DNA of 64,000 nucleotides. Source: Pseudanabaena sp. Chao 1811. GTDB lineage: Bacteria; Cyanobacteriota; Cyanobacteriia; Pseudanabaenales; Pseudanabaenaceae. The translations under genes were made by a program, and so were the position numbers. Location: the NCBI RefSeq assembly GCF_027942295.1, contig NZ_CP101416.1:620001-684000 (forward strand), written 5' to 3'. This document shows, piece after piece, positions 25,845 to 64,000 of this stretch (the stretch's first letter is position 1; the number at the start of each line of letters is the position of its first letter). The notes under the pieces were generated by a model. The model saw only the letters and a list, made by a program, of their open reading frames with translations. It searched no databases and had not been told where the DNA came from.

Positions 25845-26665
25845 TCGCTTACTTGAAAAGAGCTATATTGCGATCGCATTAAGGTTTTCCATAATTTCCC
25901 GAAAGCTGTCTAAGCCTGCTTCGATATTTTCGATGATTTCATTAGCCAGAATGTCGGGATCGGGGAGATTATCGAGATCGGCGAGGCTTTTGTCCTTGAG
26001 CCAGAAAATATCGAGGTTGGTTTTGTCTCGCGCCATGATTTCGTCATAGCTAAATTTGCGCCAGCGTCCTTCGGGGGTTGCTTCTGACCATGTTTCGATG
26101 CGGTGGTAGCGATCGCCTGATTTGTAGCAATCGATAAAAGGCTGGAGATCTTCAAGTTTGAGGGGATTTTTCTTGAGGGTATGTTGGACATTGGTGCGGT
26201 AGTCATAGATCCAGACTTCCTTTGTCCAAGGCTCTTTGGCGGCGGGTTTGTTGTCAAAAAAGAGGACGTTTGCCTTGACTCCTTGGGCATAAAAGATGCC
26301 TGTGGGCAGTCGCAAAATTGTATGTAAATCGGTGGTTTTCATTAGCTCTTTGCGGACGGTTTCGCCTGAGCCGCCTTCAAAGAGAATGTTGTCGGGAAGG
26401 ACGACGGCGGCTTGTCCGTTGACTTTGAGCAGGGTGCGGATATGCTGCAAAAAGTTGAGTTGTTTGTTGGAAGTGGTTGCCCAAAAGTCTTGGCGGTTAT
26501 AGCTAAGGTCTTGGCGTTCCTGTTCGCCTTCTTGGTTGGTGATGGTGATGCTGCTTTTTTTGCCGAAGGGTGGATTGGCGAGGACATAATCAACGCGAAT
26601 ACCTTCATCGGAAATGAGTGCGTCATTGGTAGAGATAAAACTATCGCCATCAATTTCGCCGATGT

Positions 26666-27697
26666 TACAGCCTATTGAGGGAAAGAGTAGTACAAGATAA
26701 GCTAGGATAGCAAAACCCAAAAGAGAGTAAAAAATGGCACCTTACTCACTAGATCTCAGAGAAAAGATCGTAGCAAACTACGAAGCAGGAAATACATCGA
26801 TTCGGGAAGTAGCGAAGCAATTTCAAGTCGCGACGAAAACAGTGCAAAAACTACTGAATCAATACCGAGAGACAGGAGAACTAAACCACAAACCATTAGG
26901 TAGTCCAATCAAAAGTCCCCTCGAAGCGCATCAGGAGAAAATCCTCGAAATTGTCTCAGAGCATCCAGATTGGACACTATGGCAGTACTGTGAAGAAGTA
27001 GCAGAACAAACAGGAGTATCAGTGACCACAGGCAGCATGTGCCGATTTTTCCAGAGGCATAACATCACTCTAAAAAAAAGACCTATCGCCATGAAAAGGT
27101 AAAAAGTGAGGCAGTACAACAGCAAAGATGTGAATTTTGGGAAGCATTGAATGAAGTGAAAGCTGAAGATCTGATTTGTATTGATGAAACGGGAGTATGG
27201 CAGGGGATGGAACGCTCTGTGGCAAGAAGTGAATGTGGCAAAAGAGTATTCAGTCTTCGTCCCTTTTACAAAGGTCAGAAATACACAATAATTGGCGCTA
27301 TTTCAGTTGATGGGATTGTTTGCCTGAAAACGATTCAGGGTTCTATGAAAGGAGCAGATTTTCTCACCTTTGTCCAAGATGACCTAGTACCTAAATTACG
27401 TCCTGAGCATAGGATCATCATGGATAACCTCAACTGCCATAAAGTTGAGGGGGTCGCAAAAGCAATTACAGCGACAGGTGCTAAGATTTTGTACTTACCC
27501 ACCTATTCTCCTGATTTTAATCCAATTGAGATGATGTGGTCGGTTCTCAAATATTTTATTAGATTGCTTAGACCTCATTCTCAAAAACTACTTCAGCATT
27601 TAATCAACGTTTTCCCTTACTTGTTAGAAAAAGATTTCTTCAAAAATTGGTTTACTAAGTGTTGTTACTGTACTACTTAATCCCTCAATGGACTGTA
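26666..27697 (+). mobile_element. IS630-like element copy 1, TA target duplication, in hsdM
   Basis: The element is 1028 bp (26668-27695) flanked by TA on both sides. The ends are inverted: left CAGCCTATTGAGGGAAAGAG, and the right end in reverse complement CAGTCCATTGAGGGATTAAG. TA targets and the two-frame DDE transposase mark the IS630/Tc1 group. It is inserted opposite to hsdM transcription and appears identical to the copy at 62795. Confidence 0.95.
26734..27680 (+). CDS. IS630-family transposase made by -1 frameshift (copy 1)
   Basis: Frame one (26734-27102, 122 residues) has a helix-turn-helix (SIREVAKQFQVATKTVQKLL) and a second winged region. The other frame, with 177 residues from an ATG at 27147, contains DDE residues: Asp in LICIDETGVW, Asp in RIIMDNLNCHK, Glu in PDFNPIEMMWS. 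A run of eight A (27072-27079) just before the first stop lets ribosomes slip back one base and continue as KKTYRHEKVKSEAV into the second frame, giving about 315 residues. Such frameshifting is known in IS630 elements; here it is inferred. Confidence 0.88.
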
Positions 27698-28464
27698 TGC
27701 AAAAACATATTCATCAAGCAGAGGCGGCGGGTACTGGCGACGATTTCATTTCCTGAGAAGGTGCGATTTTTGAGAAAGATTTTCTGATCTTTGTCGAGGC
27801 GATGGTGTTTGATGATGTGGTCATAGGCGGCGAGAAAGAATCCTCCTGTACCACAGGCGGGATCGTGAATGGTTTTGCTGGGTTGCGGATTGACGCAGGC
27901 AACCATTGCTTTGATTAAGGCTCTGGGGGTGAAGTATTGTCCTGCACCGCTTTTGGTGTCTTCGGCGTTTTTCTCTAGCAGTCCTTCGTAAATGTTGCCT
28001 TTGACATCGGTTCCCACCATTGTCCATTGCTCTTTGGCGATCATGTCGATGATTTTGAGCAGTTTTGATGGGTCTTGGATTTTGTTTTGCGATTTGGTGA
28101 AGATTTGCCCTAATGTGCCTTTTTCGGTGGCAAGCGATCGCAACATTTGGTTGTAATAATTTTCGAGTTCTGCGCCGCGTTTGTTGCTGGTGAGGGTTGC
28201 CCAGTCGCACTTTTCGCCGTTAGCGATTTCGTTGCCTTCTGCGTCTTTGATGTGCGGAAATTTGATGATTTTGCTGTAGGGCGGTTTGGACATTTCGTCT
28301 GCCATTTTGAGGAATAGCAGGTATGTAATTTGTTCGAGGTAGTCGCCATAGCTCACACCGTCGTCACGTAGGACGTTGGCGAAGTTCCAAACTTTAGAGA
28401 TTAGGCTTGATTCGTTACTCATTTGTAGCTTTTCTTTTTTAGATAATTTAGATTTAGATAGGTT

Positions 28465-49802: not shown

Positions 49803-50459
49803 TCATAAAATTCTGATATTCAATGAATCGCGAAGCTCAGTTAGAGGCTTTTCCCACAGAAGTTTCCAATCTATCCCAAATAGAGGTTGAGCATGTTTTG
49901 CTAAAAGCCATCCTTGAGAAACTGCATCCATATACTCTGTAGAACGTTCAATATCATAGACCACAGTTTTTAAGAGATTTTTGGTAATTAAAGCTAACCA
50001 GAATCGGCTGAAACGCATTTGGGATACATAGAAAGCTTCTAACTGAATCTCGCCAATAATAGTGGTCTCAAATCCCGTAATCACATGCCAAATATCATGG
50101 GTTTCGGTAATATGTGCGCCTAAAAACTCATAGTCATTGTTACTAGGCTTGATTTGCAATGGCTTGAGGTTGTTTTTGAACATATGCTGAGCATAGGCAT
50201 AACCAAGAGTATGCTTTGGCAAAATAGCAAGCTGTTCTAAATCTACTTCACCAACACGTGGATAGGTCTCAAAAGCAAGTTTCCCTTGAGAATGGCTAGA
50301 TAAAGACTGAATCATTAACTGTAAGCTTTCTGAATCTGCACTCGCTATCGCAAGGCGATCAATTACACCAAAATCACCATCAGGCGATCGCACCATTTCT
50401 AGAAATGCCGATAATAGAGCTTCTTCTCTTTGTTGTTTAGCATCCAATAACTCAGTCAT
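49803..50459 (-). CDS. COQ4-family protein
   Basis: The 218-residue protein has the COQ4 zinc motif HDxxHx11E exactly: His121-Asp122, His125 and Glu137 in ETHDIWHVITGFETTIIGEIQ. COQ4 functions in ubiquinone synthesis in mitochondria; cyanobacteria make plastoquinone, so a role in quinone or another decarboxylation is inferred only. ATG 50459 starts MTELLDAKQQ. Confidence 0.82.
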   Translation of the reverse strand: MTELLDAKQQREEALLSAFLEMVRSPDGDFGVIDRLAIASADSESLQLMIQSLSSHSQGKLAFETYPRVGEVDLEQLAILPKHTLGYAYAQHMFKNNLKPLQIKPSNNDYEFLGAHITETHDIWHVITGFETTIIGEIQLEAFYVSQMRFSRFWLALITKNLLKTVVYDIERSTEYMDAVSQGWLLAKHAQPLFGIDWKLLWEKPLTELRDSLNIRIL

Positions 50460-50493
50460 AGTTTTCAGTAATACTTAATAAGTAAATTATAAA

Positions 50494-50608
50494 CCCGTAG
50501 TAGATAGATACAGCTAAAATAGTGTATTAGAAGTTCTTTTAAAACAAGCTAAACATAGTTACCAGAAATTTACTATGCATGATTTTAGCCATGTCTATCC
50601 ACTACGGG
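50494..50608. mobile_element. Miniature element flanking the deacetylase gene, left copy
   Basis: Ends are CCCGTAGTAGATAGATAC and, in reverse complement, CCCGTAGTGGATAGACAT. The inside carries AAAATAGTGTATTAGAAG and AAACATAGTTA. A second copy of the same orientation lies at 51710-51820. Confidence 0.85.
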
Positions 50609-50655
50609 GATGATTAACTGTCCCAATAACTCTAATAAAACAAGTACGGGAGACA

Positions 50656-51678
50656 ATGATGATTCGGTTTGCTACCTACTTACATCCTCAAACATTTTTG
50701 TCTTCTAAACCTATTCAGGAAATTTCTTTTGGCAAATATTCTTTCCCGTATTACAACAAAGTTCGACATAATCTTGCAAACTCACTTCAAGATTATCCAG
50801 TACTACCTTTAAGAAAAGCTAAAGTTGATGATTACCTCCGAGTACATACCTATGAATATATACGGAAAATCACTTTAAAAGCTCTTGGAAAACCATTGGA
50901 TGAAATTAGTCTATCTCTACCACAATTGAATTTTGAGTGTTCAGGGCTAGAATATTGTTTGTCTGGTTATCTCTATGGATTAGGAGGAATGCTAACGGCA
51001 GTTGACAACATGAAACAGGGAAATCTAGACCGAGCTTATTGTTTCAGTATGGTTGGACATCATGCCCACAGTAACTGGGGACATGGCTACTGTCTTCTTA
51101 ATCCCCTTGCTGCTGCTACTCGATATGCTCAAAATCATGGATTTGAAAAGGTGCTGATTATTGATTGGGATATTCATCATGGTGATGGAACCCAAGAGAT
51201 TTTTAGCAATGATTCTACTGTCTATTGCATCAGTATTCATAGTGCAGTTGATCTCTACATGGCTAAAGCCTCAAACTTGAAAGTTGGGACAACAGATGCT
51301 GCGGAAGCAGTTGGACATTGTAACATTCCGATTATCACTGAATCTTTTCCAGTTGAAGTTCTTCAAGATGAGGGGATAACTGGAAATTTTTATTATGGGC
51401 ATGAAAGTATTGATGCTTTTCAACAAGCTTTAGAAAAGGTTCCATGGAAACCTAATCTAATCGCTATTTTTTCTGGCTATGATTCTCATAAGAATGATTG
51501 TGGAGCAAGGACAACGGGCTGGACAAATGACGACTTTTGCAAGCTAACTGAAATCGTTTTAAGTTATGCGAAGAAATGTGAATGTCCAGTTCTCTCTTCG
51601 CATGGAGGTGGGTATAAATTACCAGTAACAGTTTCAGCAGCAATTGCTCATATCAAGACTTTATCTACCTATATTTAA
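50656..51678 (+). CDS. Histone deacetylase family (AcuC-like) deacetylase
   Basis: The 340-residue protein has the arginase-deacetylase fold residues: paired His in VGHHAHSNWGHGYC (~135), the zinc-binding DWDIHHGDGTQEIF (~170) and FSGYDSHKND (~272), plus SSHGGGYKL near the end. Bacterial members act on acetylated polyamines, acetyl-CoA synthetase or small metabolites; the substrate is unknown. It lies between two 110-bp miniature elements in direct orientation and contains no GCGATCGC octamer, while both neighbours do. This hints at movement as a unit. Confidence 0.88.
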   Translation: MMIRFATYLHPQTFLSSKPIQEISFGKYSFPYYNKVRHNLANSLQDYPVLPLRKAKVDDYLRVHTYEYIRKITLKALGKPLDEISLSLPQLNFECSGLEYCLSGYLYGLGGMLTAVDNMKQGNLDRAYCFSMVGHHAHSNWGHGYCLLNPLAAATRYAQNHGFEKVLIIDWDIHHGDGTQEIFSNDSTVYCISIHSAVDLYMAKASNLKVGTTDAAEAVGHCNIPIITESFPVEVLQDEGITGNFYYGHESIDAFQQALEKVPWKPNLIAIFSGYDSHKNDCGARTTGWTNDDFCKLTEIVLSYAKKCECPVLSSHGGGYKLPVTVSAAIAHIKTLSTYI

Positions 51679-51709
51679 TTCCTCTCAGAGCAACCATTTT
51701 GTAGATCTT

Positions 51710-51820
51710 GTAGTGGATAGACACACCTAAAATAGTGTATTAGAAGTTCTTTTAGAAAAAGTTAAACATAGTTATCAGAAATTTGCTATTGCATTACCTT
51801 GGCTGTGTCTATCCACTACG
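51710..51820. mobile_element. Miniature element flanking the deacetylase gene, right copy
   Basis: Left end GTAGTGGATAGACACACC; right end in reverse complement GTAGTGGATAGACACAGCC. It shares most of its inside with the copy at 50494 in the same orientation. No transposase frame. Confidence 0.87.
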
Positions 51821-51843
51821 ATTTCGTCTAAATGGATAGGTAC

Positions 51844-53469
51844 TTACTTCGTATCAGCAGTAGTTAGCTCGGCAATGGGGGCGATCGCTTTTAATCTCAA
51901 CTTAGGATGATCCGCTTCCACTTGATTTAAGTTCCATTGGTTCTTAAAGAGCAACACAGGACGATTCCAGCTATCTTTGACTACCATTGTATTAAATAGT
52001 CTACCCACAGCTTCGAGGGCTTCCCAGCCATCCTCAACCCATCTTGCTACGGAATAAGGCATCGATTCGAGAATAGTTTCGACGCTGTATTCGCTTTGGA
52101 GTCGGTACTGAGCAACTTCAAATTGTAATTGCCCGACGGCAGCGAGAATCGGATCGCGCTTCGATTCATCAACGGAATACATGATTTGGATTGCGCCTTC
52201 CTCCTGTAGTTCCGAAATCCCTTTACGGAATTGCTTGAACTTAGAGGGGTTAGGATTACGGAGCGTACAGAATAGTTCTGGCGAGAAGCAAGGAATCCCC
52301 GCATATTGACGCTTTTTACCGAGATAAATCGTGTCCCCGATCGCAAACATTCCCGGATTATTTAAACCGATGACATCACCTGCATAAGCGACATCGATCG
52401 CTTCACGATCCTGTCCAAATAATTTTTGGGCATGGGACAGCCGAATGCTCTTGCCACTGCGTAAATGGGTCACACTCATATCTTTTTCAAACTTGCCAGA
52501 GCAAACTCGCACAAAGGCAATGCGATCGCGATGGCGTGGGTCCATATTCGCTTGCAGTTTAAATACAAACGCCGAGAAGTCCTCATCAGTGGGAGAGACT
52601 TCACCGCTTGAACTATCGTGAACAGTGGGAGTGATGCCAAATTCCAGAAAAGATTTTAAGAATAGTTCCACACCAAAGTTGGTCATGGCACTACCAAAGA
52701 AAATTGGCGTGAGCTTACCCCGATGTAAATCCTGTGTATCCCATTCTGCACCGAGGGAATCGAGAACTTCCAAGTCTTCGAGCAGTTGGTTATAGAGATT
52801 ATTGCCAATAAATTTAATGGCTTGGGGATCATCATAGGGATAGATATCAACAGTTGCTTCGCGTTGTCCGTGAGCACTCCGTTGAAACAAATGCACTGTC
52901 TTCGTGGCGCGATCATACACACCTTTAAACTGATCGCCCGTACCGATCGCCCAATTCATCACATAGGGAGTGATCCCTAACTCTTTTTCGATTTCATCCA
53001 ACAGTTCCAATGGCTCACGGGTAGGGCGATCCATTTTGTTGATGAAAGTAAAAATTGGTAGCGATCGCATCCGACAAACTTCAAACAATTTCCGAGTTTG
53101 TGGCTCTAATCCCTTTGCCCCATCAACTAGCATCACGGCATTATCCGCCGCCGCGAGGGTGCGATAGGTGTCTTCACTAAAATCTTTGTGACCGGGGGTA
53201 TCCAGCAAATTAATGCAATAGCCCATATAGTCAAATTGCAAAACCGTCGAGGTAATCGAAATCCCGCGTTGTTTTTCTAATTCCATCCAGTCCGATGTGG
53301 CATGACGCTGAGCGGCTCTAGCTTTGACCGCACCCGCAAGGTGGATTGCACCTCCGTACAGCAATAGTTTTTCAGTAAGGGTAGTTTTCCCCGCATCGGG
53401 GTGGGAAATAATTGCAAAGGTGCGCCGCCTTTCGACTTCGCGCTCTAACTCTTGCCACAGTTGACTCAT
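51844..53469 (-). CDS. prfC: Peptide chain release factor 3
   Basis: RF3 is a GTPase that removes RF1/RF2 from the ribosome. The 541-residue sequence has P-loop [15 protein letters not shown] (~20-34), [14 protein letters not shown] (G3), NKMDRP (G4) and a C-terminal domain with [16 protein letters not shown]3 is not universal in cyanobacteria. Confidence 0.95.
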
Positions 53470-53909: not shown

Positions 53910-55421
53910 TTGTGCGAATTGACCACTATTAGCGATCGCGTTAGCATATTTATATATTTGTCAGTATTTGTATTTTACAAGTCTAGAAACCTGAGTATTA
54001 ACTACGCCACCAAATTGATCTGGGAAATATTCACCATCGCATTAATTGCATTAGTAGTAGCGATCGCTTGGTGGCGATCAATATTTTTGATCTCACAGCG
54101 TCTCAAAAAATCAAATCAGGAATTAGAATTACTAGTCCAGCAAAAAAGTAATGAGCTAGAAGCGTTAAAATCTTCACTACAACGCACTAATTTTTTGCTA
54201 GACCGTCGCGAAAATCAACTCAGAAAGCAGCAAAATATTTTATTTGCCTTAACAAAAGATCGAGCAATTAACCAAGGTGACTTTATTGTTGCTGTCCAAA
54301 ATATTACAAGAACGGGCAGTTTCGCTCTCAATGTCGAACGGGTTAGTATTTGGCTCTTCAATAAAAACAAGACTGTTTTACATTGCCTTGATCTCTACCA
54401 AAAAAGCTTAAATCTGCATACCGAGTCTGAAGTTTTAAGCGCAGAAATGTATCCTAGCTTTTTTGGGGCAATTCTCAAGGATCGGGCGATCGCTACCGAA
54501 GATATCCAAGAAGATCCTATTTTTCAAGAATTATTTTTACCCTATTGCTTGCCTTTAGGAATTGTTTCTACTTTGGTATCTAGATTTGAAGTCGGTGGAG
54601 AAATTATTGGTATTCTCGCCTTTGAGCATACCGAGATTGAACATCTATGGACAGAGGAAGAAATTAGCTTTGCCAATTCTTTGTCAGATTTATTAGCACT
54701 CGGAATGGAAGCCCAAGAACGCCGACGGGTCGAAGAAAGTCTAAGGGTTGAACAGAAAAAATCAGAGCGCCTCTTGCTGAATGTATTGCCACCAGAAATC
54801 GCCGAACGCTTGAAGTCGTTGCAATTTAAGACGCAAGTGCATCTCAAAACTAGCGGGACAATTGTGGCAGATTCCTTTGACGAAGTTACCGTGTTATTTG
54901 CGGATATTGTCAATTTTACGGAATATGCGGCGGCTATTTCTGCTAGTGAATTAGTGAATGTATTGAATGAGATATTCTCAGAGTTTGATTACTTCGTTGA
55001 GCAATACGACCTCGAGAAGATCAAGACGGTGGGTGACTCCTATATGGTAGTGGGGGGATTACCTGTACCCAGTGATGATCATGCGGAAGCGATCGCCGAA
55101 ATGGCTTTACAAATGCAAGCCTCGATCAAGAAATTTAAACGCTCTGATGGTAGCCAATTTTCATTGCGGATCGGTATTCATACAGGACAGGCGATCGCTG
55201 GGGTAATTGGCACAAAAAAATTCATTTATGACCTGTGGGGCGATACGGTCAATGTCGCTAGTCGTATGGAGTCCTATGGTATTGCCGACTGTATTCAAGT
55301 TACTGAAGCGACCTATCAACTTTTAAAAGACAAATATTATTTTGAACAACGCAGTGCCATTAATATTAAGGGCAAAGGAGAAATGACGACCTATCTCTTG
55401 AAAGGACGTATAGGTGCTTAG
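53910..55421 (+). CDS. GAF-domain class III adenylate cyclase (first of tandem)
   Basis: The ~503-residue protein has an N-terminal membrane helix (FTIALIALVVAIAWW), a coiled coil, a GAF domain (~110-280), and a cyclase domain with metal Asp in VLFADIVNFTEYA, Lys and Asp in LEKIKTVGDSYM, Asp in FIYDLWGDTVNVASRME; the Lys/Asp pair favours ATP over GTP. No ATG lies near the start; TTG 53910 is the likeliest, but the exact start is uncertain. The next cyclase overlaps its stop by eight bases. Confidence 0.86.
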   Translation: MCELTTISDRVSIFIYLSVFVFYKSRNLSINYATKLIWEIFTIALIALVVAIAWWRSIFLISQRLKKSNQELELLVQQKSNELEALKSSLQRTNFLLDRRENQLRKQQNILFALTKDRAINQGDFIVAVQNITRTGSFALNVERVSIWLFNKNKTVLHCLDLYQKSLNLHTESEVLSAEMYPSFFGAILKDRAIATEDIQEDPIFQELFLPYCLPLGIVSTLVSRFEVGGEIIGILAFEHTEIEHLWTEEEISFANSLSDLLALGMEAQERRRVEESLRVEQKKSERLLLNVLPPEIAERLKSLQFKTQVHLKTSGTIVADSFDEVTVLFADIVNFTEYAAAISASELVNVLNEIFSEFDYFVEQYDLEKIKTVGDSYMVVGGLPVPSDDHAEAIAEMALQMQASIKKFKRSDGSQFSLRIGIHTGQAIAGVIGTKKFIYDLWGDTVNVASRMESYGIADCIQVTEATYQLLKDKYYFEQRSAINIKGKGEMTTYLLKGRIGA

Positions 55422-57246
55422 CAGCAAAGGCATTACTTACTTAGGCATCATGTTTAAAATCTCGTATCTAGCTGGGTTATTAAAAAATGTTCCACTGAAA
55501 AACTTACTAGTGGTTCCATTTGTGTTTCAGCTTATCCTCGCGACAGGACTAGTTGGCATATTTATTTTTTATAGTCGCCTAATGGTAGTAGTAATTCCTG
55601 AATCTCAATTTACAGGTTCGATGCAGGATTATACACAAATAGTGATTTTGCTATACTTTGCAATATTAGCGATCGCTATTTTGGTGAGCATGATGATCGG
55701 GCGATCAATTTCTTCTTCTATAGAGAAATTAAATGAAGCTTCCCAAGCAGTTACTCAAGGCAAGATCGATACAAGGGTATCAATAGAAGGAACTCACGAA
55801 ATTCAAGTTTTGGCTGCATCATTTAATACGATGGTAGAAATGATGGCAAATTCTTTGTTGCAACTAGAGCAATCCAACCAAGACTTAACATTAAATTTAA
55901 GAGAAACAAACTATGAACTCAATGCATCCAAAGCCTCATTGCAACGCATAAATTTCCTATTAAGTCGCCGTGAAGATCAACTGCGAAAACAACAGGATTT
56001 TCTACTAGGTTTAACCAAAGATAAATCAATTAATCAGGGAGATTTTATCGGTGCTGTTCAAAATATTACCTATACAGGAAGCCATGCTCTAAATGTAGAA
56101 AGGGTTAGTATTTGGCTATTTGATACAGCAAAAACTCTTCTACATTGTCTCGATTTGTATATTAAAAGTACAGATACTCATACAGAAGCAGATTATTTAA
56201 CTTCTCAAGATTATCCCAATTTTTTTGCTGCCCTTAAATCACAAAATAGTATTTCTGTTGAGGATGTACGGGAGGAATCATCGTTACAAGAAATCATGGA
56301 GTATTTCAACTCTGCAAACACGGTATCTTTATTGATTAAGCCCTTTGAAGTTAACGGCGAATTAACAGGCATTATTGCCTTTGAAAATACTGATATAGAA
56401 CGTTTATGGCTACCAGAAGAGCATAGTTTTGCTAGTTCTTTGGCAGATTTATTAGCATTGGGCATGGAATCTCAAGAGCGTCGCCGAGCTGAAGAAAAGC
56501 TGCGAATTGAACAGATGAAATCGGAACGTTTATTACTAAATGTTTTACCGCAAGAGATTGTAGAGCGCTTAAAACTGTCTCAGTCAAAAGCTTTAGCAAG
56601 TAAGGTTGTAGAGGCTTATTCTAACAATTTACTAGAGATAGATCCTATGTTAGATAGTCTCACCAACGGTAAAATCTCTGGTGCAGTTGTTGCTGATGCC
56701 TTTGATGAGGTAACAGTGTTATTTGCAGATATTGTCAATTTTACGGAATATGCGGCGGCTATTTCTGCTAGTGATTTGGTCAACTGTTTAAATGATATAT
56801 TTTCAGAATTTGACCGTCTAGTTGATGTTTATGAATTAGAGAAAATTAAAACTATTGGTGATTCTTATATGGCAGTTGGAGGATTGCCAACACCAAGTAA
56901 GGATCATGCGGAGGCGATCGCCGAAATGGCATTGGAAATGCAAGCATCCATCCAGCAATTCAAGCGTACTGATGGTAGTCCCTTTTCATTGCGGATTGGT
57001 ATTCACACTGGACAGGCGATCGCAGGAGTAATTGGCACGAAGAAGTTTATTTACGACCTTTGGGGTGATACGGTCAATGTGGCAAGTCGGATGGAGTCCC
57101 AAGGTGTTGCTGGTTGTATCCAAGTTACCGAAGTAACCTATCACCTGTTAAAAGACAAGTATCAATTTGATTCCCGTCGAGAGATCGATATTAAAGGTAA
57201 GGGTAAGATGATTACTTATTTATTAACAGGAAGGCTCCCAAGCTAG
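55414..57246 (+). CDS. HAMP-GAF class III adenylate cyclase (second of tandem)
   Basis: The 610-residue protein has two membrane helices (~33-53 and ~75-95), a HAMP linker (GRSISSSIEKLNEASQAVTQGKIDTRV), coiled coil, GAF (~200-370) and cyclase domain (~430-610) with the same FADIVNF, EKIKTIGDSYM and YDLWGDTVNVASR motifs. GTG 55414 follows AAGGA (55402-55406), overlaps the first gene's stop, and is chosen over ATG 55450. The pair is a tandem duplication: the coiled-coil to cyclase part is closely alike. Confidence 0.87.
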   Translation: MLSSKGITYLGIMFKISYLAGLLKNVPLKNLLVVPFVFQLILATGLVGIFIFYSRLMVVVIPESQFTGSMQDYTQIVILLYFAILAIAILVSMMIGRSISSSIEKLNEASQAVTQGKIDTRVSIEGTHEIQVLAASFNTMVEMMANSLLQLEQSNQDLTLNLRETNYELNASKASLQRINFLLSRREDQLRKQQDFLLGLTKDKSINQGDFIGAVQNITYTGSHALNVERVSIWLFDTAKTLLHCLDLYIKSTDTHTEADYLTSQDYPNFFAALKSQNSISVEDVREESSLQEIMEYFNSANTVSLLIKPFEVNGELTGIIAFENTDIERLWLPEEHSFASSLADLLALGMESQERRRAEEKLRIEQMKSERLLLNVLPQEIVERLKLSQSKALASKVVEAYSNNLLEIDPMLDSLTNGKISGAVVADAFDEVTVLFADIVNFTEYAAAISASDLVNCLNDIFSEFDRLVDVYELEKIKTIGDSYMAVGGLPTPSKDHAEAIAEMALEMQASIQQFKRTDGSPFSLRIGIHTGQAIAGVIGTKKFIYDLWGDTVNVASRMESQGVAGCIQVTEVTYHLLKDKYQFDSRREIDIKGKGKMITYLLTGRLPS

Positions 57247-57398
57247 GATCTCCAAACTTGCGATCGCTTAACCCTCAAGACAACCTTAAATTTTGTAGAT
57301 AAATCCACAATGTAAGATTGTCTTGATATCATATTGGTTAATCTATAAGTTAAAAGATAATCTGTAGAATTAATTAAGATCGATCAATCAGTAAAAAA

Positions 57399-62681: not shown

Positions 62682-62792
62682 AAATTTGATTTGCTGTGAG
62701 GTTTAGCTCAGGGAAAATTTGAGAGATCAGGCGATCGCTATTCTGAAATTTGCTAATTTGATATTCTCCATCCACCAAATTACAAACTGAGA

Positions 62793-63824
62793 TACAGCCT
62801 ATTGAGGGAAAGAGTAGTACAAGATAAGCTAGGATAGCAAAACCCAAAAGAGAGTAAAAAATGGCACCTTACTCACTAGATCTCAGAGAAAAGATCGTAG
62901 CAAACTACGAAGCAGGAAATACATCGATTCGGGAAGTAGCGAAGCAATTTCAAGTCGCGACGAAAACAGTGCAAAAACTACTGAATCAATACCGAGAGAC
63001 AGGAGAACTAAACCACAAACCATTAGGTAGTCCAATCAAAAGTCCCCTCGAAGCGCATCAGGAGAAAATCCTCGAAATTGTCTCAGAGCATCCAGATTGG
63101 ACACTATGGCAGTACTGTGAAGAAGTAGCAGAACAAACAGGAGTATCAGTGACCACAGGCAGCATGTGCCGATTTTTCCAGAGGCATAACATCACTCTAA
63201 AAAAAAGACCTATCGCCATGAAAAGGTAAAAAGTGAGGCAGTACAACAGCAAAGATGTGAATTTTGGGAAGCATTGAATGAAGTGAAAGCTGAAGATCTG
63301 ATTTGTATTGATGAAACGGGAGTATGGCAGGGGATGGAACGCTCTGTGGCAAGAAGTGAATGTGGCAAAAGAGTATTCAGTCTTCGTCCCTTTTACAAAG
63401 GTCAGAAATACACAATAATTGGCGCTATTTCAGTTGATGGGATTGTTTGCCTGAAAACGATTCAGGGTTCTATGAAAGGAGCAGATTTTCTCACCTTTGT
63501 CCAAGATGACCTAGTACCTAAATTACGTCCTGAGCATAGGATCATCATGGATAACCTCAACTGCCATAAAGTTGAGGGGGTCGCAAAAGCAATTACAGCG
63601 ACAGGTGCTAAGATTTTGTACTTACCCACCTATTCTCCTGATTTTAATCCAATTGAGATGATGTGGTCGGTTCTCAAATATTTTATTAGATTGCTTAGAC
63701 CTCATTCTCAAAAACTACTTCAGCATTTAATCAACGTTTTCCCTTACTTGTTAGAAAAAGATTTCTTCAAAAATTGGTTTACTAAGTGTTGTTACTGTAC
63801 TACTTAATCCCTCAATGGACTGTA
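62793..63824 (+). mobile_element. IS630-like element copy 2, TA target duplication, in a Uma2 gene
   Basis: The 1028-bp element (62795-63822) is flanked by TA and reads the same as the copy at 26668-27695 throughout. Identity of the two implies recent movement. It lies opposite to the gene it splits. Confidence 0.95.
62861..63807 (+). CDS. IS630-family transposase made by -1 frameshift (copy 2)
   Basis: Identical to the transposase at 26734: helix-turn-helix frame (62861-63229), A8 slip site at 63199-63206, then the DDE frame to 63807. See copy 1 for motifs. Both copies keep the same A8, so the split is a feature of the element and not random damage. Confidence 0.88.
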
Positions 63825-64000
63825 GTTGGCTGTTTGGGATTACCGATAAAGTTGCGTCCGCCCAATGCGGCATAATCAATAATCCAATATTCAGCTATGC
63901 CCATTTCTTCATAATCGGCAAATTTTAAATGATAATCATCGCGCCAATTGGTAGATACAATTTCGATCGCTAAAGGTATGGATGCACCCTGACTCAGAAC

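Follow-up and report, generated by a model that had tools for sequence, protein, structure and literature searches.

Arrangements in which two miniature elements bound a cargo have already been described. In TIME-COMP structures, these elements are derived from Tn3 (PMC4133298, PMC13367494), and integrons flanked by MITEs are known in Acinetobacter (PMC10969869, PMC3934969). A third relevant group is that of the GTAG-tagged palindromic repeats and REPINs, which also occur in cyanobacteria (PMC3733652, PMC3116915). The locus analysed here resembles TIME-COMP in that two miniature inverted-repeat elements without transposase bound a cargo. It differs in the size of the elements (about 110 bp, versus 262 bp for TIME), in the duplications left by the family (4 bp versus 5-6 bp, with none for the deacetylase unit) and in its setting, a cyanobacterial chromosome within a genus where no cognate transposase was found. 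As in the Acinetobacter integrons, the same MITE lies at both cargo ends, whereas the cargo is here a single enzyme gene and both the unit and the element are much smaller. The GTAG repeats and REPINs are likewise short extragenic hairpin palindromes with GTAG/CTAC at their outer ends. In contrast, the present family is rare, produces direct NTAN repeats of 4 bp and uses the tags of such palindromes as insertion points. In none of the 30 loci inspected, of 58 listed matches, did it directly flank a RAYT gene. MITE-bounded cargo is a known kind of arrangement, and what is new is the host and the variant. No such arrangement in cyanobacteria was named among the literature matches listed (titles and beginnings of abstracts, subscription papers being thinly covered), and no paper joining “miniature inverted-repeat transposable”, “cyanobacteria” and “Pseudanabaena” was found, with the same thin coverage of the subscription literature.

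The window, i.e., the whole 64,000-nucleotide stretch analysed, corresponds to positions 620001-684000 of a single-contig 4.73-Mb genome (G000). The junction of interest lies between a Coq4-family gene (49803-50459, minus strand) and prfC, the gene of release factor 3 (51844-53469, minus strand), which form its native left and right sides. As originally predicted, two elements of about 110 bp in the same orientation flank an intact deacetylase/amidohydrolase gene of the HDAC family (50656-51678, plus strand, 340 aa). The left one is a MITE-like palindrome of subfamily A (50497-50605, plus strand, 109 bp) and the right one belongs to the same family (51710-51819, plus strand, 110 bp). GTAG is the outer left and CTAC the outer right 4-mer of each bracketing copy and of the entire unit, none of which hence shows a direct target duplication. 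The two elements are 87.2% identical over their whole length in a gapped alignment, with 90% identity over the first 80 nt without gaps and 81% over a 31-nt stretch at the right end. The near-perfect terminal repeats announced for both are a property of the right element, whose first and last 16 nt are fully complementary (16/16), while those of the left element contain mismatches. Allowing up to three mismatches, GTAGTGGATAGACACA matches the window four times, at the four element ends, versus 0.21 expected. End-to-end folding of the left and right elements is better than in shuffled sequences, with RNA z values of -5.5 and -7.6 on the plus strand and of -4.6 and -5.0 on the minus strand, respectively.

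No ORF of 60 aa or more is listed inside either element, and comparison with known RNA families gave only two matches, both far below the gathering score. The left element had no match in the plasmid collection. A promoter and terminator scan of 50400-51900 found no terminator, and two promoter-like sites versus 4.9 in shuffles. A DNA search of the whole G000 genome detected these two full copies and one broken copy (1591977), to which a covariance model adds one weak match at 954149-954265. A simple post hoc calculation gives a probability of about 0.0015 for a pair within 1.2 kb when three copies are placed at random, or about 0.003 if the weak fourth match is counted. Among the matches listed for the 26 genus genomes, only the two window copies bracket a gene within 2 kb. 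Another feature put forward at the outset was the lack of the HIP1 octamer in the gene, in contrast to its neighbours. The counts are indeed 0 in the deacetylase gene, 1 in coq4 and 3 in prfC, but this absence was rejected as a mark of foreignness since it is not significant: 164 of 1258 segments of 1104 bp within the 64 kb also lack the octamer.

Like the HDAC-like amidohydrolases (HDAH, HDAC6 domains), the gene product carries the family domain (Pfam Hist_deacetyl, PF00850, 1.6e-45), and seven putative catalytic residues, H135, H136, D170, D172, H174, D276 and Y320, which we take to be those of the HDAC family, are invariant in nine aligned sequences. Unlike them, its best PDB sequence match is a distant one (HDAC6, 4.4e-38). 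The dN/dS ratio is about 0.08 relative to its two closest homologues, and the dN of 0.018 obtained in the comparison of G000, G023 and G030 suggests that the gene is under purifying selection. These three genomes are the only ones to contain it out of 26 in the genus. It was found in 3 of 38 genomes of the family at E<=1e-20 and in 12 of 388 genomes of the class at E<=1e-100, and the protein had no match in the plasmid collection at 1e-30. Pairwise comparison of G000, G023 and G030 gave NG86 dS values of 0.22, 0.21 and 0.22 for the gene, far below those obtained for the same pairs with prfC (1.08-1.20), coq4 (1.16-1.52), the dppC-like gene (0.57-0.71) and hisA (0.63-0.98). The gene therefore spread horizontally among all three lineages; vertical inheritance was rejected on account of both the dS values and the patchy presence.

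In G030 and G023, the gene is located elsewhere than at coq4-prfC, after hisA and a dppC-like permease gene (names assigned by eye). A block of about 1.1 kb (50617-51704, plus strand) is about 94% identical to the corresponding block at this dppC-like locus, the homology running from 50617 to 51704 in G030 and from 50617 to 51687 in G023. It begins 11 bp past the left element, after a short spacer (50606-50616) with an edge uncertain by a few bases, and stops 5 bp (G030) or 22 bp (G023) before the right element, these edges being dependent on the alignment scoring. The block common to G030 and G023 has nearly the same edges. No element of this family lies beside the gene in either genome, and G023 has a single copy of a sister-family element, on another contig. 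The gene has thus moved without elements too, and does not need one to move.

The coq4-prfC junction itself was then compared across relatives. A Coq4 match at 1e-20 or better is present in 16 of the 26 genomes; ten of these loci were compared, and the junction is readable in eight genomes including G000, while G012 and G025 lacked a view of both of its sides together. An empty site, one of the checks proposed for the original prediction, was found in five of the eight. The distance between the aligned coq4 and prfC ends is there 40, 38, 11, 40 and 40 bp (G023, G027, G030, G026 and G028, respectively), part of which may be an unaligned prfC end. The sister genomes G032 and G022 both lack the deacetylase gene, so that synteny kept without the elements, the other outcome considered in advance, is not what they display. 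Of the two sisters, G032 is the nearer one at all four genes according to dS; its junction holds one 79-bp GTAG...CTAC palindrome of another family. In G022 (L094, G022:C1:3514000-3533000), it is filled by about 7.4 kb of unrelated cargo bounded by element ends, which encodes a papain-type protease, a protein with a jacalin-like match and a LuxR-type regulator, and includes one further mobile element. The papain-type protease gene was found in G022 alone among the 26 genomes. One and the same site has thus four states across relatives: empty, one palindrome, the deacetylase unit and another cargo. This comparison supports real mobility at this site.

The edges of these fillings were also informative. 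Beside prfC, G022 has a full element of a sister subfamily, 69% identical to the window elements, which may therefore represent an independent arrival at the same place. Beside coq4, only a degraded GTAG-type end is seen, with an alignment running 34 nt into the left element of the window. The 12-base stretch GATCTTGTAGTG (51704-51715, plus strand) spans the right junction of the window, and the same 12 bases follow the gene on its 3' side in G030, there without this element. The motif GATCTT, found at this right junction, also precedes the G022 element beside prfC. Taken together, these two features indicate that the junction lies in shared sequence. In G030 and G023, GTAG is found at the place where the right element begins in the window.

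The element family was further explored in the genus with a covariance model built from seven copies, 149 of the 1051-2382 first-look candidates being scored per genome. At least 27 family places were obtained in at least 14 of the 26 genomes, with one to five in each, several of them weak; the single place listed in G008 looks unrelated by eye, and the two neighbouring copies of G019 form a head-to-tail tandem. In the 19 copies with both ends readable, the body measures 98-104 bp and mostly starts with TGG and ends with CCA. A direct 4-mer is present on both sides in 13 of them (CTAC in six, GTAG in four, CTAG in three), the body ends having been set by eye. Five others, including both window copies, are bordered by GTAG at left and by CTAC at right, and the last one is of another type. 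As the three CTAG copies represent one shared locus, at most 11 of 17 loci are independent. This count leaves out the broken G000 copy, the truncated G021:C3, the partial matches in G013/G014 and G027, and six weak or unread places (G000:954149, G015:C288, G015:C322, G019:C11, G026:C45 and G008:C9). Beyond the window, the GTAG/CTAC type is seen in the right-hand copy of G022 and in G024 and G011, which means that the missing duplication is not unique to the deacetylase unit.

Of the ten copies with a direct CTAC or GTAG, nine were seen by eye to lie right against the end of another palindrome. In G017, GTAG occurs twice at the insertion, and the element body comes after a leader that is directly followed, in G000 and G008, by another GTAG palindrome. 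Both the direct 4-mers and the G017 case correspond to the traces expected of a MITE that duplicates 4 bp (NTAN) on insertion. The bracketing elements are short, lack genes, have inverted ends and belong to a scattered family with 4-bp direct repeats in 13 of 19 readable copies, which supports the view that they behave like MITEs. Direct duplications of 4 bp are not expected from an IS200-type insertion, and this pattern argues against a GTAG-REP/RAYT system. That RAYT (HUH, IS200-like) transposases mobilised the gene by means of REP/REPIN elements is a very improbable scenario. It would account for the GTAG...CTAC outer tags, similar to those of the GTAG-tagged REPs (PMC3733652), and candidate enzymes are common: REP_Tyr_transpos matches occur in 22 of the 26 genomes (above the curated cut-off in 11), in five of them 1.9-3.0 kb downstream of the dppC-like gene, and in G019 (L115) two family elements lie about 1.1 kb from a RAYT-type gene. 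However, the GTAG...CTAC palindromes that flank RAYT genes at many of the 30 loci inspected, of the 58 listed matches, belong to other families, which, together with the 4-bp duplications, weakens RAYT/REPIN as the mobiliser.

Many short palindromes of unclear use populate cyanobacterial chromosomes, and here two copies of a rare one delimit a recently imported gene. These palindromes most likely point to places of exchange, through which foreign genes came in. More specifically, we favour the explanation that the deacetylase unit arose by exchange between palindromes at a site already holding one, to which we give a probability somewhat short of even. The bracketing elements would be non-autonomous MITE-like palindromes with a TGG...CCA body of about 100 bp, of a family that appears to be usually flanked by a 4-bp NTAN duplication and often inserted at the GTAG/CTAC end of another palindrome. 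The coq4-prfC junction of the clade probably already carried a GTAG...CTAC palindrome, and a horizontally acquired piece of about 1.1 kb with the HDAC gene would have entered it by exchange between palindromes. The simplest version is a single crossover between the resident element and a putative incoming molecule carrying the gene and one element copy. The product would be the gene between two elements pointing the same way, still bordered by the resident GTAG and CTAC and lacking a fresh target duplication. If the two direct repeats then recombined, the gene could be lost once more.

Such an exchange is consistent with the GTAG...CTAC palindromes also held by the coq4-prfC site of the sisters. 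Since no direct duplication is seen and the outer tags are kept, exchange or crossover would be favoured over transposition of the unit. On the other side, the G032 palindrome at the junction belongs to another family, and the predicted intermediate, either a lone subfamily-A element at the junction or the gene with one element elsewhere, was not found in the relatives.

The original proposal of a composite transposon made of MITEs was right about the presence of MITE-like elements on both sides of the gene. As a mechanism, it would mean that the unit travelled into the junction as one piece, through the action of a transposase, provided in trans, on its two outermost ends. It fits with a direct pair of closely related copies bracketing both homology edges, with the MITE-like 4-bp duplications elsewhere in the family, and with the broken G000 copy lying 1.3 kb downstream of the dppC-like gene, where relatives have their HDAC gene. 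However, neither the bracketing copies nor the unit has a direct duplication around it, so that a simple composite transposition is not demonstrated. Moreover, a second copy of the repeat-gene-repeat unit, looked for as proposed at the outset, is absent among the matches listed for the 26 genus genomes, the searches of the genus yielded no autonomous transposase having such ends, and the gene loci of G023 and G030 are devoid of elements. A true composite MITE transposon appears for these reasons unlikely, without being negligible.

The missing duplications also bear on independent insertions, in which the gene arrived by another route and one element was then added on each side, drawn by GTAG/CTAC-type sites. 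Elements of this family do insert at existing GTAG and CTAC ends, and a GTAG follows the gene in G030 and G023 precisely where the right element begins. Yet the duplication expected from such events is missing at both copies, and the family is so rare (two full copies found in G000) that two hits within 11 bp of both edges would be unlikely. In addition, the window copies are closest to each other among the eight compared (87.2%, the next value being 80.6%), and the sequence outside both elements resembles that of the sisters. We consider this succession of events rather improbable.

A cognate insertion sequence would be expected to have TGGATAGACA or TGGACTGTTT ends together with 4-bp NTAN duplications. 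The autonomous transposase that the original prediction called for was not found in the genus with the two end patterns searched. None of the 17 neighbourhoods of the GTAGTGGATAG type has a facing end within three mismatches. Most look like chance matches, and one, in G024, is a member of the family. At L144 (G012), the one among these 17 where ORFs were listed, the start of a RAYT-type gene lies some 70 bp away from an end-like match that has no facing end. In the eight TGGACTG-type neighbourhoods, also scanned for ORFs, one (G008, L201) has a DDE_Tnp_1 gene right behind the end. This DDE transposase was rejected as the autonomous partner because its G022 relative has its own, different inverted ends; the G008 transposase element appears thus to interrupt a family copy.

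The dppC-like locus of G000 has no deacetylase gene; the broken third element lies 1.3 kb downstream, ahead of a reading frame judged by eye to be a transposase fragment (helix-turn-helix domain, HTH_38). Among 25 such loci, some of them cut by contig ends, the element is present only in G000 and G019. Across 23 of the 25 genomes, 13 groups can be distinguished in the first 1.5 kb past the dppC-like gene (two stretches being too short to judge and two genomes omitted), and this region is a variable site. A broader proposal is that GTAG, CTAC and CTAG are docking tags common to unrelated cyanobacterial palindrome families, and that palindrome pairs would form a transposase-poor exchange system swapping single- or multi-gene cargo at fixed intergenic sites, such as coq4-prfC and the region downstream of the dppC-like gene; it is speculative, and we regard it as improbable. 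If the role of the palindromes were confirmed, the idea that they act as seams for the entry and exit of single genes in cyanobacterial genomes would become testable, and palindrome pairs could serve as a marker for finding other imported genes.

Several side observations were made. Of the five RAYT-type genes located 1.9-3.0 kb past a dppC-like gene (L114, L115, L116, L120 and L121), the one of G030 has stops and that of G021 is in pieces; G000 has an open RAYT-type gene at 3483390. In four genomes (L113/L119, L118, L184 and L191), GTAG palindromes belonging to different families come after a similar leader of 45-60 nt; these loci otherwise share little, L184 and L191 having other pieces in common in another order. 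Two deacetylase gene copies are present in Kamptonema sp. UHCC 0994 (L019, L033), with a common 1.1-kb block at 96%. Elsewhere in the window, two copies of a different mobile element (26662-27699 and 62791-63830), with 29-nt ends that are 83% complementary, are each about 95% identical to the further mobile element of the G022 cargo, and all three are presumably of the IS630 type. Lastly, at about 53910-57267, two related genes in tandem are suggested by the way this region cross-matches that of G022 (about 78% over 550 bp); we assume them to be of the adenylate-cyclase type.
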